A stretch of DNA of 64,000 bases from positions 1-64,000 of the forward strand of contig JAIELK010000001.1 in assembly GCA_019753175.1 (NCBI GenBank). Reading direction: 5' to 3'. The notes beneath the pieces are model-generated. The model did not search any database. It was not told the origin of the DNA and was given only the letters and a program-made list of their open reading frames with translations. Of the stretch, positions 3,589 through 47,112 are shown piece after piece (position 1 is the stretch's first letter; the number at the start of each line of letters is the position of its first letter). Both the position numbers and the translations under genes were made by a program. This DNA is from Hyphomonadaceae bacterium (GTDB lineage: Bacteria; Pseudomonadota; Alphaproteobacteria; Caulobacterales; Aquidulcibacteraceae).

Positions 3589-3693
3589 CGTCATCCCGGA
3601 CATGCGAAGCGTGATCCGGGACCCAGGGGCCAACGCACAGCTTGGTGTCTCCTGGGTTCCGGGATCCGCCTCCGGCGGCCCCGGAATGACGAG
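3589..3693. repeat. palindromic element, family A (GTCATTCCGG type)
   Basis: Inverted repeat with outer arms CGTCATCCCGG...CCGGGACCCAGG at 3589-3627 and CCTGGGTTCCGGG...CCGGAATGACGAG at 3651-3693. It fills the gap between two minus-strand genes, and the stop codon of the upstream gene (3695-3697) abuts it. Members of this family recur at 19328, 36668 and 47001. Confidence 0.85.
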
Positions 3694-14328: not shown

Positions 14329-16842
14329 ATGTCAGAAGACACACTCCCCATCTCGCAGCGCGCGGCGGCCGCGCCGCCTTATCTGGCGACGCTGAACCCC
14401 GAGCAGCGCGCGGCGGTGGAGGCGCTCGACGGCCCGGTGCTGGTGCTGGCCGGCGCCGGCACCGGCAAGACGCGCGTGCTGACCACGCGGCTCGCGCATC
14501 TCTTATCCACGGGCCGCGCGAAACCGTGGAGCGTGCTCGCCGTCACCTTCACCAACAAGGCCGCGCGCGAAATGCGCGAACGCGTGGAAGTCTTGCTCGG
14601 CCCGGGCGGCGGCGGTTTGCCCTGGCTCGGAACCTTTCACTCGATCAGCGCGCGCATGCTGCGCACGCACGCCGAGCTTGTCGGCCTGAAAAACACCTTC
14701 ACCATCCTCGACACCGACGACCAGATCCGCCTGCTCAAACAGATCATCGAAGCGGAAAACATCGACGAAAAACGCTGGCCCGCGCGCCAGCTCGCCGGGC
14801 TGCTCGATAGCTGGAAGAACCGCGCGCTCACGCCTGATCGCGTGCCGAAGAACGAAGCGTTCCAATTCGCCGACGGCGCCGGCGTGAAGCTGTACACACT
14901 CTATCAGCAGCGGCTGAAGATCCTCAACGCCTGCGACTTCGGCGATCTGCTGATGCATATGATCGACATTTTCCAGCGTCACGCCGACGTGCTGGAAACG
15001 TATCACAAGAAGCTCTCCCACCTGCTCGTGGACGAGTATCAGGACACCAACGTCGCGCAGTATCTGTGGCTGCGGCTGCTGGCGCAGGCGCGCAAGAATT
15101 TATGCGTGGTCGGCGACGACGATCAGTCGATCTACGGCTGGCGCGGCGCCGAGGTCGATAACATCCTGCGCTTCGAGCACGACTTCCCAGGCGCACAAGT
15201 GGTGCGTTTGGAGCGCAACTACCGCTCGACGGGGCATATCCTCGCCGCCGCCGCTCATCTGATCGCACACAATCGCGGCCGCTTAGGCAAAACGCTGTTC
15301 ACCGACGACGAACTGGGCGCGCGCGTCAAAGTGCGCGGCGTCTGGGATGGCGAAGCCGAAGCCCGGCTGGTGGCGGACGATATCGAGGCGTGGGTGAGTG
15401 CGACACTCCCCCTCCCCCTTGCGGGGAGGGGGTTGGGGGGTGAGGGGCGTGCAAACGCCCAGACGCCGGACGTGTCGGATCGCCCCTCCTCCCCTACCCC
15501 TCCTCCGCTAGGGAGGAGGATATATTCCGACTGTGCAGTACTCGTCCGCGCCGCCTGGCAGATGCGCGCCTTCGAAGAGCGCTTTCTGATGTTGCGCATT
15601 CCGTACAAGGTGATCGGCGGACCGCGCTTCTTCGAGCGTGCCGAGGTGCGCGATGCGCATGCGTATCTGCGCCTGATCCGCTCCGAGGACGACGACCTCG
15701 CCTTCGAGCGCGTGGTCAACCAACCCAAACGCGGCGTCGGCGAAGGGACAGTGCAGAAGTTGCATGCGCACGCGGGCAAGCCGCAGGTGCGCTTCGTCAC
15801 CGATCACGGACCCTTGTTCGACGCAGAAACCGGCGAAGTGGTGACGGCGCAAGACGAAGCGCCCGGTGGCGCTACGCGCTTCCGCTCGATGGTCGCCGCG
15901 GCGCGCGAACTGGTGCTCACCGACGAACTGCCGCTGAAGGCAAAGACGGCGCTGCGTGCGTTCCTCAACGATCTCGACCGCTGGCGCGAGCTGTCGCGCA
16001 GCGTAAGCCACGTCGAACTCGCCGAGACCATTCTCGACGAAAGCGGCTACACCGAGATGCTGCGCAACGACAAATCCCCACAGGCGCAGACGCGATTGGA
16101 GAACCTGAAGGAACTGGTCCAATCCATGGGCCAGTACGATACGCTGGAGGCGTATCTTGAACACGTCTCCTTGGTGCTGGACATCGAAGCCGAGAGCGAG
16201 GGCGAGAACGTACAACTCTCCACTTTGCACGCGGCCAAAGGCTTGGAATGGCCGCTCGTTTTCCTGCCCGGCTGGGAAGAAGAAGTGTTTCCGTCGAAGC
16301 GATCCATTGAGGAGAGCGGCGAGAAAGGCCTCGAAGAAGAGCGCCGGCTCGCTTACGTAGGCATTACCCGCGCCCGCGAACGCGCCTACATCTCGTTCGC
16401 CGCCAACCGCCAGATCTACGGGCGCTGGCAAACGGTGCTGCCCTCGCGCTTCATCGATGAATTGCCGCCGGCCAATGTCGATGCGATCAGCGAGACCGGT
16501 TACGCCATGCAGGCGGGCGGCGTGCGCGAAGCGGCGGCGCGGTTCGATGCGTACGCGCCCGGCGCGGGCTTCAACAGCGCCTATCAATCGCCCGGCTGGC
16601 GGCGGGCGCAGGAAAACGCCGGCAAGCGCGGCAAACCGCCGATGCTCGAAGGCGAAGCGCGCCTCATCGCCAAGTCAGGCGACGAAGACTCGCACTACCA
16701 GCGCGGCGACCGCATCTTCCATCAGAAGTTCGGTTACGGCCTCATCCGCGCCGTCGAAGGCAACAAGCTGACCGTCGACTTCGACAAAGCTGGCGAAAAG
16801 CGCGTGATCGACAGCTTCGTGATTCCGGCGAGCGCGGCTTGA
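14329..16842 (+). CDS. uvrD: UvrD/PcrA-type DNA helicase with in-frame repeat insertion
   Basis: 3'-5' superfamily 1 helicase acting in excision and mismatch repair; 837 residues. Motif I is AGAGTGKTRVLTTRLA, motif II DEYQDTN, motif III DDDQSIYGWRGAEV, motif IV YRST, motif V LSTLHAAKGLEW and motif VI YVGITRARER. A C-terminal Tudor-like end (RIFHQKFGYGLIRAVEG) is present. I chose the ATG at 14329 (MSEDTLPIS). Residues 356-398 (codons 15394-15522) interrupt the usual sequence between the 2A-domain motif ARLVADDIEAW and YSDCAVLVRA. They consist of two nested inverted repeats rich in Pro, Gly and Leu, and the reading frame is preserved. Confidence 0.95.
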   Translation: MSEDTLPISQRAAAAPPYLATLNPEQRAAVEALDGPVLVLAGAGTGKTRVLTTRLAHLLSTGRAKPWSVLAVTFTNKAAREMRERVEVLLGPGGGGLPWLGTFHSISARMLRTHAELVGLKNTFTILDTDDQIRLLKQIIEAENIDEKRWPARQLAGLLDSWKNRALTPDRVPKNEAFQFADGAGVKLYTLYQQRLKILNACDFGDLLMHMIDIFQRHADVLETYHKKLSHLLVDEYQDTNVAQYLWLRLLAQARKNLCVVGDDDQSIYGWRGAEVDNILRFEHDFPGAQVVRLERNYRSTGHILAAAAHLIAHNRGRLGKTLFTDDELGARVKVRGVWDGEAEARLVADDIEAWVSATLPLPLAGRGLGGEGRANAQTPDVSDRPSSPTPPPLGRRIYSDCAVLVRAAWQMRAFEERFLMLRIPYKVIGGPRFFERAEVRDAHAYLRLIRSEDDDLAFERVVNQPKRGVGEGTVQKLHAHAGKPQVRFVTDHGPLFDAETGEVVTAQDEAPGGATRFRSMVAAARELVLTDELPLKAKTALRAFLNDLDRWRELSRSVSHVELAETILDESGYTEMLRNDKSPQAQTRLENLKELVQSMGQYDTLEAYLEHVSLVLDIEAESEGENVQLSTLHAAKGLEWPLVFLPGWEEEVFPSKRSIEESGEKGLEEERRLAYVGITRARERAYISFAANRQIYGRWQTVLPSRFIDELPPANVDAISETGYAMQAGGVREAAARFDAYAPGAGFNSAYQSPGWRRAQENAGKRGKPPMLEGEARLIAKSGDEDSHYQRGDRIFHQKFGYGLIRAVEGNKLTVDFDKAGEKRVIDSFVIPASAA
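15394..15522. repeat. palindromic element, family B, in frame within uvrD
   Basis: 129 bases, exactly 43 codons. They contain a C-rich hairpin (CCCCTCCCC-CTTGC-GGGGAGGGG), a longer pairing between TGAGGGGCG and CGCCCCTC, and a second hairpin (CCTCCTCC-GCTAG-GGAGGAGG). It resembles the element at the end of folA in composition and arrangement. No stop codon is present in the uvrD frame. Confidence 0.8.
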
Positions 16843-18886: not shown

Positions 18887-19894
18887 ATGCTCCTCCTTAC
18901 CGCCCTTGGCTCGCTTGCGCAGGTCCGCGCTGCCGCCGACGAACTCGACCGCCACGACCCCTCGCCCGCCGACGCCGTGAGCTGGTTCGAGGAGAAGCCG
19001 GGCAAGTTCCGGCTCGAACTGTACGTGCCGACCAAGCAGGACGCGGCGAGCGCGCAAGCGATCGTCGGCGCCGCCGCGCCGGAGCTGCATCTCAAGCAGA
19101 AGAAACTGAAGGACGCCGACTGGGTGGCGATGTCGCTCGAAGGCCTGCCCGCTGTGCGCGCCGGGCGCTTCGTCGTCGCCGGCGCGCATGCGCTGGCGCG
19201 CGAACACAGCGGCCGCACCAAGATTTGGATCGAAGCCAGCGAAGCGTTCGGCACCGGCCACCACGGCACCACCTGGGGCTGTCTGATGGGATTGGAGCAC
19301 TATCTGCGGCGGCGCGGGAAGCGCTCACACCCATTCCCGGGGCGCGGCAAAGCCGCGAGCCCGGGACCCATAAACACTAAGGTAGAAAAAGCCTGCGCGC
19401 CCGCCGGCGCCCTCTCAGGTGCGATTGTGCCTATGGGTCCCGGACTTGGCGCTTCGCGCCAATCCGGGAATGGGTGGAAGGTCCTCGATGTCGGCGCGGG
19501 CTCCGGCGTGCTTGCCATCGCCGCGGCAAAGCACGGCGCCGAAGCGCTCGCCATTGAGATCGACCGGCGCGCCGCCGCCATCGCCGCCATCAACGTTGAG
19601 CAGAACAAGGTTGCTCAGCGCGTACGCGTCATCGCCGGCGACGGGGCCCGCAGCATCGCGGGCAAGCGCTTCGATCTCGTCTTCGCCAATATCCTGATGC
19701 GACCACTCATCCGCCTTGCGCCAAAGCTGGTCGCCGCGACCGCGCCAGGCGGCGCGCTTATCCTGTCAGGCCTGTTGCGCACACAGGCGCCGCTGGTGCG
19801 CGAGGCGTACGCCAATCGCGGTCTGCTGCTGGAGCGGCAGATCCCCAAGGAAGCTTGGATGACGTTGGTGTGGCGCAAACCTCAACGCGCATAG
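18887..19894 (+). CDS. prmA: ribosomal protein L11 methyltransferase with in-frame repeat insertion
   Basis: SAM-dependent trimethylation of ribosomal protein L11; cytoplasmic. The N-terminal L11-binding domain is followed by FGTGHHGTTWGCL, the SAM-binding VLDVGAGSGVLAIAAA and the catalytic-loop FANILMRPL, all typical. The protein is 335 residues, about 50 longer than usual. The extra residues (about 148-197, between LRRRG and WKVLDVG) coincide with a palindromic element whose frame is open. It overlaps the convergent small secreted protein gene by 13 bases. Confidence 0.93.
   Translation: MLLLTALGSLAQVRAAADELDRHDPSPADAVSWFEEKPGKFRLELYVPTKQDAASAQAIVGAAAPELHLKQKKLKDADWVAMSLEGLPAVRAGRFVVAGAHALAREHSGRTKIWIEASEAFGTGHHGTTWGCLMGLEHYLRRRGKRSHPFPGRGKAASPGPINTKVEKACAPAGALSGAIVPMGPGLGASRQSGNGWKVLDVGAGSGVLAIAAAKHGAEALAIEIDRRAAAIAAINVEQNKVAQRVRVIAGDGARSIAGKRFDLVFANILMRPLIRLAPKLVAATAPGGALILSGLLRTQAPLVREAYANRGLLLERQIPKEAWMTLVWRKPQRA
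19328..19476. repeat. palindromic element, family A, in frame within prmA
   Basis: Inverted arms of about 45 bases at 19328-19372 (CACCCATTCCCGG...CCGGGACCCATA) and 19432-19476 (TATGGGTCCCGG...CCGGGAATGGGTG), separated by 59 bases. Same family as the elements at 3589, 36668 and 47001. It is open in the prmA frame. Confidence 0.85.
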
Positions 19895-36667: not shown

Positions 36668-36780
36668 CTGTCATCCCGGACGCGCGAAGCGCGATCCGGG
36701 ACCCAGGAGATCGTAGGGTGCCGCGTTGGCCTTTGGGTCCCGGCTCTACGCCGCTCACGCGGCTCCGGCCGGGATGACGG
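36668..36780. repeat. palindromic element, family A, overlapping the 3' end of murC
   Basis: Left arm CTGTCATCCCGGACGCG...CCGGGACCCAGG (36668-36707), right arm TTTGGGTCCCGG...CCGGGATGACGG (36732-36780). The right arm encodes the last codons of murC (VIPAGAA and the TGA stop at 36755). Confidence 0.85.
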
Positions 36781-47000: not shown

Positions 47001-47112
47001 CCCTCGTCATTCCGGGGCTCGCGGAGCGAGAACCCGGAACCCAGTGGCAACCGTCGAACCCTGTGATCCCCTGGGTTCCGGATCGCGCTTAGTGCGTCCG
47101 GAATGACGAGGG
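47001..47112. repeat. palindromic element, family A, between murE and murF
   Basis: Ends match perfectly in inverted orientation: CCCTCGTCATTCCGG at 47001-47015 and CCGGAATGACGAGGG at 47098-47112, with CCGGAACCCAG/CTGGGTTCCGG inside. It fills nearly all of the murE-murF gap and would fold in the mRNA seven bases before the murF start codon. Confidence 0.9.

Follow-up and report, generated by a model that had tools for sequence, protein, structure and literature searches.

What is the segment that interrupts prmA, the gene for ribosomal protein L11 methyltransferase, in the window (the whole 64,000-nucleotide stretch of DNA that was analyzed), and how did it come to lie in a conserved gene with the reading frame still open? 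The ORF at this position was matched to Pfam family PF06325 (PrmA; 3.7e-47), with the match split over two stretches. The segment is bordered by LRRR on one side and by the SAM motif, VLDVGAGSG, on the other and adds ~51 residues to the PrmA of the source genome. A first-pass annotation had placed a palindrome in frame within prmA, with about 50 residues between LRRRG and the SAM motif; both claims were borne out, the first by an inverted pair of hairpins within the conserved prmA ORF and the second by an insert of 51 amino acids (aa). The segment is probably a nonautonomous dimer resembling CGTC-tagged REPs, which was inserted in frame and tolerated and which belongs to a family that would be mobilized by a cognate standalone GIY-YIG nuclease.

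An inverted-repeat search identified two arms of 50 nt each (19328-19377 and 19427-19476) that were 76% complementary and separated by 49 nt. Folded as single-stranded DNA, the element had a free energy of -52.1 kcal/mol, compared with a mean of -30.1 kcal/mol (standard deviation, 2.75) for dinucleotide shuffles (z = -8.0). A chance palindrome was rejected, as 0 of 200 shuffles were as stable as the element. Both arms were paired in the minimum-energy structure, as in the long-hairpin inverted doublets of the REPIN type, and each 46-nt arm also folded alone as a hairpin (Table 1), with a 7-bp outer stem, an inner stem of 6 to 7 bp, and a 3-nt loop. The heads of the two arms point outward, at 19329 on the plus strand and at 19464 on the minus strand, in the arrangement of a head-to-head inverted dimer. 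Stop-free frames through the element numbered one per strand, and the frame on the plus strand is the one used by prmA, in which the dimer is translated as HPFPGRGKAASPGP...SRQSGNG. No target duplication was seen at the prmA insert. No Rfam model matched at the element; matches in the whole window were limited to three (one tRNA and, at a single place, two tmRNA models).

Table 1. Positions of prmA, its insert, and related repeat features in the window
Feature	Position	Strand	Basis
Family B insert in pcrA/uvrD (approximate limits)	15400..15513	+	Filled place in 8/25 genus genomes; folding
prmA (ribosomal protein L11 methyltransferase), carries insert	18887..19894	+	335 aa; Pfam PF06325, alignment of 25 relatives, dN/dS
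A2-subfamily palindrome dimer (two inverted REP-like hairpins plus spacer)	19328..19476	+	Arms, folding, frame
5' REP-like unit, head CACCCATTCCCGG	19328..19373	+	Hairpin z = -5.7; exact A2 head 19329-19340
3' REP-like unit, inverted	19431..19476	-	Hairpin z = -6.3; exact A2 head 19464-19475
A1 (CGTC-headed) dimer, sister of A2	3589..3691	.	Exact heads 3589, 3681
A1 dimer, sister of A2	36669..36779	.	Heads 36669 (one mismatch), 36769 (exact)
A1 dimer, sister of A2	47005..47108	.	Exact heads 47005, 47098

PrmA was searched for in 61 genomes, of which 30, including the source genome, belonged to the same genus, and the site was readable in the prmA genes of 27 of these (G015, G024, and G028 gave remote matches only). 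As the first-pass annotation had supposed, the segment is not constant in PrmA: it was missing from 22 of the 27 readable same-genus genes, and a constant PrmA domain was rejected on this count. The prmA genes of three genomes of the same family (G030, G035, and G036) also had no insert. The site was filled in the remaining five same-genus genes, namely, those of the source genome (A2 dimer, 51 aa), G007 (family B, 49 aa), G022 (24 aa), G012 (21 aa), and G011 (resembling family B by eye and interrupted by the end of the contig), and the fillings represented at least two unrelated families. Outside the insert, an alignment of 25 PrmA proteins (three of 28 candidate rows were dropped for doubtful ends) was nearly gap free, with motifs kept, and dN/dS ranged from 0.02 to 0.14 both before and after the site in eight pairs, five of which included an inserted lineage. 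Given these low ratios on both sides, PrmA with the insert is most likely a working gene product that is still made and used, and it presumably still methylates L11. In a tree of the same 25 rows, G007 was placed in a supported clade (97/95) with the uninserted G029, G003, and G004; most other forks were poorly resolved, and the bootstrap had not converged. Because these clade-mates lack the insert, the family B insertion at the prmA site of G007 was, judging from the sequences, most likely an independent event.

A second conserved gene, pcrA/uvrD, carries a family B insert less than 5 kb from the prmA insert, and family B is unrelated to family A. The statement in the first-pass annotation that two unrelated repeat families had entered two conserved genes within 5 kb therefore held, with family B in pcrA/uvrD and A2 in prmA. 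The strand from 15395 to 15518 folded with a z score of -4.85; the inverted-repeat finder reported no pair at the pcrA/uvrD insert. Among the 26 genus loci taken for comparison, 25 were readable, and these comprised 8 in which that place was filled, by inserts of 19 to 50 aa that varied in sequence, and 17 in which it was empty. The prmA insert of G007 was similar to the pcrA/uvrD insert of the window (82.6% over 46 nt, E = 2.6e-9), and the prmA and pcrA/uvrD sites were each filled in several species.

Recurrence of the arms, on which the first-pass reading depended, was found in the source genome, a 3.13-Mb assembly of 40 contigs with an estimated completeness of 99.94%. The prmA element had 24 blastn matches at E ≤ 0.001, a number that counts the prmA segment itself and matches on both strands to one palindrome, and these represented about ten separate loci. 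Palindromes of the prmA type and those with a CGTC head were designated A2 and A1, respectively, both labels being coined in this analysis. The A2 outer head, CACCCAT[TC]CCCGG, had 17 exact copies in the source genome, compared with 0 for a reversed control pattern, and A1 heads numbered 47. Exact A2 heads in the window were limited to the two of the prmA element. The intergenic copies at 3589, 36668, and 47001 had been assigned to the same family as the prmA insert; they share its design but belong to the sister subfamily, A1, with a CGTC head, and their blastn matches to the prmA element were weak (E = 0.066, 1.3, and 9.3, respectively). Coding versus intergenic placement was checked at eight further A2 loci of the source genome, which were viewed against bare open frames. 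At locus L216 (contig C10 of the source genome, G000), a full A2 dimer lies directly upstream of an ORF that we take to be pheS.

Genes matching PF01541 numbered two in the source genome and encoded a single-domain GIY-YIG protein (6.2e-11) and UvrC (TIGR00194, 3.6e-126). Around the gene for the former, a protein of 110 residues encoded on contig C7, three A2 dimers were found, two before the gene and one after it. These dimers consist of the same two unequal arms as the prmA insert, arranged in the same order, and the spacer is longer in the insert. Relatives of the protein were found in 17 of the 30 genus genomes (32 matches); 30 of the 32 matches were taken, with 29 loci scored together and one, L064, scored separately. 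An A arm, with one mismatch allowed, was present within 250 bp of the gene or inside it at 28 of the 29 loci, and exact heads were present at 24 of the 29, or at 29/30 and 25/30, respectively, with L064, whose gene is bordered on each side by exact A1 arms; these counts are partly circular, because the heads were chosen after the genus loci had been read. The single locus without an arm, L060, encodes a remote GIY-YIG protein (E = 7.8e-4). Arms within 300 bp stood on both sides of 13 of the 29 genes, on one side of 15, and on neither side of 1, and L064 adds one both-sided gene. The density of exact heads was 2.46 per kb near these genes and 0.16 per kb beyond 600 bp, and at the 30 prmA loci it was 0.10 per kb, two of the three arms there being the prmA insert itself. 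When arms at the genus loci were counted by nuclease clade and palindrome subfamily, 45 were MARY-A1, 26 were RVDE-A2, 11 were REEAGG-A3, and 3 were off the diagonal. GIY-YIG genes and palindromes are thus tightly and subfamily-specifically associated.

The copy number of A2 was higher in genomes with an A2-clade nuclease (P = 0.0019, with the clade of one G007 match assumed), and this test is not specific, because the copy number of A1 was also higher in these genomes (P = 0.0025). The source genome contains A1 heads, yet no GIY-YIG protein of the A1 clade was found in it. Catalytic-type residues (Y, YxG, R, H, E, and N) were invariant in 26 aligned genus GIY-YIG proteins. Profile relatives of the GIY-YIG protein in the PDB were 1zg2 (1.8e-7) and 1ywl (8.5e-4), NCBIfam gave no match to the source-genome protein at 0.001, and PADLOC gave none for two GIY-YIG proteins. 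At three loci of the A3 subfamily (L053, L061, and L068), the A3 head lies 51 to 54 nt before the stop codon of the GIY-YIG gene; the frame of the gene enters the arm, so that the repeat supplies the last codons of the gene.

Loci outside the genus were examined with a motif-free flank test, in which the best local alignment was taken between the 300 bp before and the 300 bp after each gene. When the genus GIY-YIG alignment was used to scan the GTDB genome collection, at least 572 relatives were confirmed, of which the best 80 were kept. The best 80 of these at least 572 included loci from Bradyrhizobium, Methylobacterium, Caulobacter, Brevundimonas, Sphingomonas, Rhizobium, Pseudomonas, Lysobacter, and Massilia, as well as one from a Hyphomonadaceae metagenome-assembled genome (L074) that may be near the source's own group. 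A strict pattern for the GIY-YIG nuclease motif fitted 64 of the best 80 loci. Among the 75 of the best 80 with enough flank, the median flank score was 36, compared with 18 for 129 other ORFs at the same loci (P = 3e-13). Scores of ≥35 were reached by 40 of these 75 GIY-YIG genes versus 2 of the 129 neighboring ORFs, and scores of ≥25 were reached by 53 versus 23. In a shifted-window version of the test on the best 80, the medians were 36 (n = 79) and 18 (n = 65), with scores of ≥25 in 63 and 11, respectively. The motif GTCAT[TC]CC occurred within 250 bp of the gene at 51 of the best 80 loci, compared with 8 of 80 in the band from 1,000 to 1,250 bp, and CGTCAT[TC]CC occurred at 29 near the gene and at 4 in the distant band. 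Palindromes of the CGTC-tagged type are numerous at the best 80 loci.

At 29 class-level loci for which true gene ends were used, flank scores of ≥25 were found at 22 of 29 versus 2 of 27 controls, and GTCAT[TC]CC was near the gene at 12 of 29 versus 1 of 29 in the control. Cruder flanks that started 60 nt outside the domain gave little signal at the class-level loci (≥25 in 6/29 versus 1/28), probably because the palindromes hug the GIY-YIG gene. Among class genomes of 3.3 to 4.5 Mb that were ≥90% complete (eight with weak matches were excluded), the median number of CGTC-type heads was 42 in the 39 with a strong GIY-YIG match and 25 in the 44 without one (P = 0.002); G102 had 123 CGTC heads and no GIY-YIG match. 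Over 99 loci, similarity between proteins was weakly related to similarity between flanks (Spearman coefficient, 0.15; control bands, -0.03). Flank similarity exceeded the control at protein similarities of 0.7 to 0.85 (median, 40 versus 20) and not below, and the closest bin was uninformative because the control was high there too (77 versus 60). In a plasmid collection, GIY-YIG relatives also matched records from Neisseria, Aeromonas, Photobacterium, and Planktothrix, which gives the nuclease a range wider than the alpha-proteobacteria.

Related replicons were found to differ at single sites. The sufB and sufC genes of Azospirillum lipoferum 4B are separated by a GIY-YIG gene that is flanked on each side by CGTC dimers. 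The 11 next-best Azospirillum records (89.6 to 96.5% identity) matched this region in two pieces, without the GIY-YIG stretch, and sufB adjoins sufC in the three Azospirillum records that were inspected. The filled and empty Azospirillum sites differ beyond a clean insert, as short intergenic sequence also differs. One Sphingobium intergenic site (L257 and L258 versus L252) was found in three states in different plasmids: a GIY-YIG gene between two single CGTC-type arms in one plasmid group, a solo CGTC palindrome in TomTYG74, and a different, CTCTCC-type palindrome in TomTYG72. No target duplication was seen at the Azospirillum and Sphingobium sites, and the Sphingobium alignment was likewise not clean. 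Single arms stand tight on both sides of the GIY-YIG gene in Novosphingobium aromaticivorans DSM 12444, and CGTC-type arms stand on both sides of that of Rhizobium plasmid CIAT894; no arms were found directly at the GIY-YIG gene of Rhizobium plasmid K1/93. Species thus differ in the presence of a REP-flanked GIY-YIG gene.

Slx1 cuts branched DNA. By analogy, the nuclease encoded beside the palindromes may cut their hairpins, and cutting may drive their copying, in which case the palindromes would be mobilized by the GIY-YIG nuclease. The mobile unit would be the inverted dimer of REP-like hairpins, one copy of which has landed in PrmA at a place that seems to tolerate additions, after LRRR and before the SAM motif, VLDVG. 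The nuclease gene would persist inside or beside its own palindromes, typically in the order dimer, gene, dimer, and the nuclease would act in trans on dimers without the gene, in the manner proposed for RAYT transposases and REPINs. An Slx1-type nuclease acting on a dimer in the form of a hairpin or cruciform could lead to copying via break repair or strand release, and a unit in which dimers enclose the enzyme gene could spread as a whole.

The main rival to mobilization by the nuclease is that the GIY-YIG gene is a passenger, homing into dimers that are its preferred landing sites and that spread by other means. This explanation, which was judged unlikely, would account for the Sphingobium site, where the gene lies between arms in one plasmid group and TomTYG74 has only the solo palindrome, for genus heads that are far more numerous than nuclease genes, and for genomes with many heads and no such gene. 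It fits less well with the finding that each genus nuclease clade has its own palindrome subfamily, a pattern that a match of enzyme to substrate would predict, although homing could yield part of it. It is also disfavored by the RAYTs, the other candidate enzyme examined, which do not carry dimers, and by other gene classes, which were covered as neighboring ORFs only and of which 2 of 129 scored ≥35.

It is improbable that the dimers are ordinary REPINs moved in trans by RAYT (Y1_Tnp) transposases, even though their design is REPIN-like, the source genome has three Y1_Tnp matches, and at least one such match was found in 16 of the 30 genus genomes. When 30 of the 34 genus matches were taken as RAYT loci, an exact A head was present within 500 bp of 0 of the 30, compared with 24 of 30 GIY-YIG loci, so that no RAYT gene among these was flanked by an exact cognate repeat, and RAYT was rejected as the enzyme linked to the A palindromes. 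With one mismatch allowed, heads were present at 6 of 30 RAYT loci versus 28 of 30 GIY-YIG loci, and those at RAYT loci were no denser near the gene (0.17 per kb) than far from it (0.33 per kb). The RAYT-linked tag GTAG was not enriched around the best 80 of the at least 572 GIY-YIG genes (ratio, 1.0), and in a 2013 survey of CGTC-tagged REPs, CGTC repeats were not found around any RAYT gene (PMC3733652).

A local origin of the palindromes through replication or repair errors, or as terminators, with no dedicated enzyme and with nuclease genes that merely tolerate them, is very improbable: it would agree with the absence of a visible target duplication, and it is countered by similar copies that are scattered over separate sites and keep one arrangement of two arms and by strong enrichment at one gene family and not at the 129 neighboring ORFs. 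Least credible of all is a selected, lineage-specific extension of PrmA, a new domain instead of a tolerated insertion, for which the filling of the site in 5 of 27 readable genus genomes might speak, since the fillings are unlike in sequence and in length (51, 49, 24, and 21 aa, and one cut off where its contig stops) and matches to dispersed repeats were found for two of them.

Mobilization of the dimers by a cognate nuclease has its closest working model in the REPIN/RAYT pairing, in which inverted REP doublets are the proposed mobile unit and different groups lie beside different enzyme genes, as described by Bertels and Rainey in 2011 (PMC3116915). The two pairings are alike in their inverted doublets and in that distinct groups adjoin distinct enzyme genes. 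They differ in that the enzyme here is of the GIY-YIG type and is not a tyrosine transposase, that GTAG is not enriched, and that the RAYT loci of the genus are without the repeats.

The repeats themselves have their counterpart in the CGTC-tagged REPs, which are mostly head-to-head inverted dimers and are commonest in alpha-proteobacteria (Di Nocera et al. 2013, PMC3733652). CGTC REPs also occur within genes, UvrD/REP helicase being among the proteins named, and intragenic CGTC repeats of R. conorii were equated with RPE-4 and RPE-6 (PMC3733652). The A1 copies of the window agree with this class in having a CGTC head and a CCCA tail, as do the A. lipoferum copies, with CGTC heads and GATCCAG tails. 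The A2 copy in prmA differs from it: the head is of the ACCC type (CACCCATTCCCGG) and not CGTC, TGTC, or CCTC, and the loop is longer and contains an inner stem, whereas CGTC REPs have a stem of 8 to 9 bp and a loop of 4 to 5 nt. A further difference is the associated GIY-YIG gene, which is found here and also in A. lipoferum and N. aromaticivorans, both among the CGTC species named in PMC3733652. With an open frame through the element and homologs that are without it, the prmA insert also fits in-frame intragenic palindromes of the kind found in Rickettsia (RPEs), to which it was likened by description as a palindrome translated within a gene.

The GIY-YIG nuclease of the source type resembles the UPF0213, or bacterial Slx1-like, standalone nucleases in having a single GIY-YIG domain and in its PDB relatives, and its sequence appears to place it near the UPF0213 proteins. 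Standalone bacterial GIY-YIG domains were grouped with Slx1 by Dunin-Horkawicz et al. in 2006, in a paper whose main text contains no word starting with "palindrom" and in which no link to palindromic repeats was seen (PMC1564403). The same text describes an HsdR protein that acquired a GIY-YIG domain by very recent insertion, a case that fits the present picture. No published link between GIY-YIG proteins and REPs was found in a literature search that had preprints and most subscription papers outside its range; in PMC9465073, a paper unrelated by its title, the two terms occur together in one gene table. Intragenic REPs, RPEs, and REP dimers were already known, and the association with a GIY-YIG nuclease is what is added here.

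CGTC REPs occur widely among alpha-proteobacteria; the 2013 survey stated that they "apparently lack a dedicated transposase" and left their mobilizer as an open question (PMC3733652). A small nuclease gene that looks active by sequence beside each subfamily makes this question testable, and the tie to the nuclease raises the weight of the prmA finding because it offers a direct test of that question. The chances appear evenly balanced that these units form a widespread class of mobile elements, in which a standalone, Slx1-like, structure-specific GIY-YIG nuclease serves hairpin or cruciform REP dimers, with a separate subfamily for each clade; this nuclease would then supply the missing means of movement for CGTC REPs throughout the Proteobacteria, and many in-frame additions to proteins, that in PrmA among them, would be traced to it. 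If so, it would represent a new chemistry for bacterial mobile DNA and would help explain in-frame insertions in PrmA and PcrA/UvrD and the presence of different repeats at one place across species.

Clustered upstream of prmA, between 11430 and 18664 of the window, are three ORFs with similar N termini (VFLSYAREDAARA, VFISYAREDKARA, and VFISYKREDRRVA), which are presumably TIR-like.
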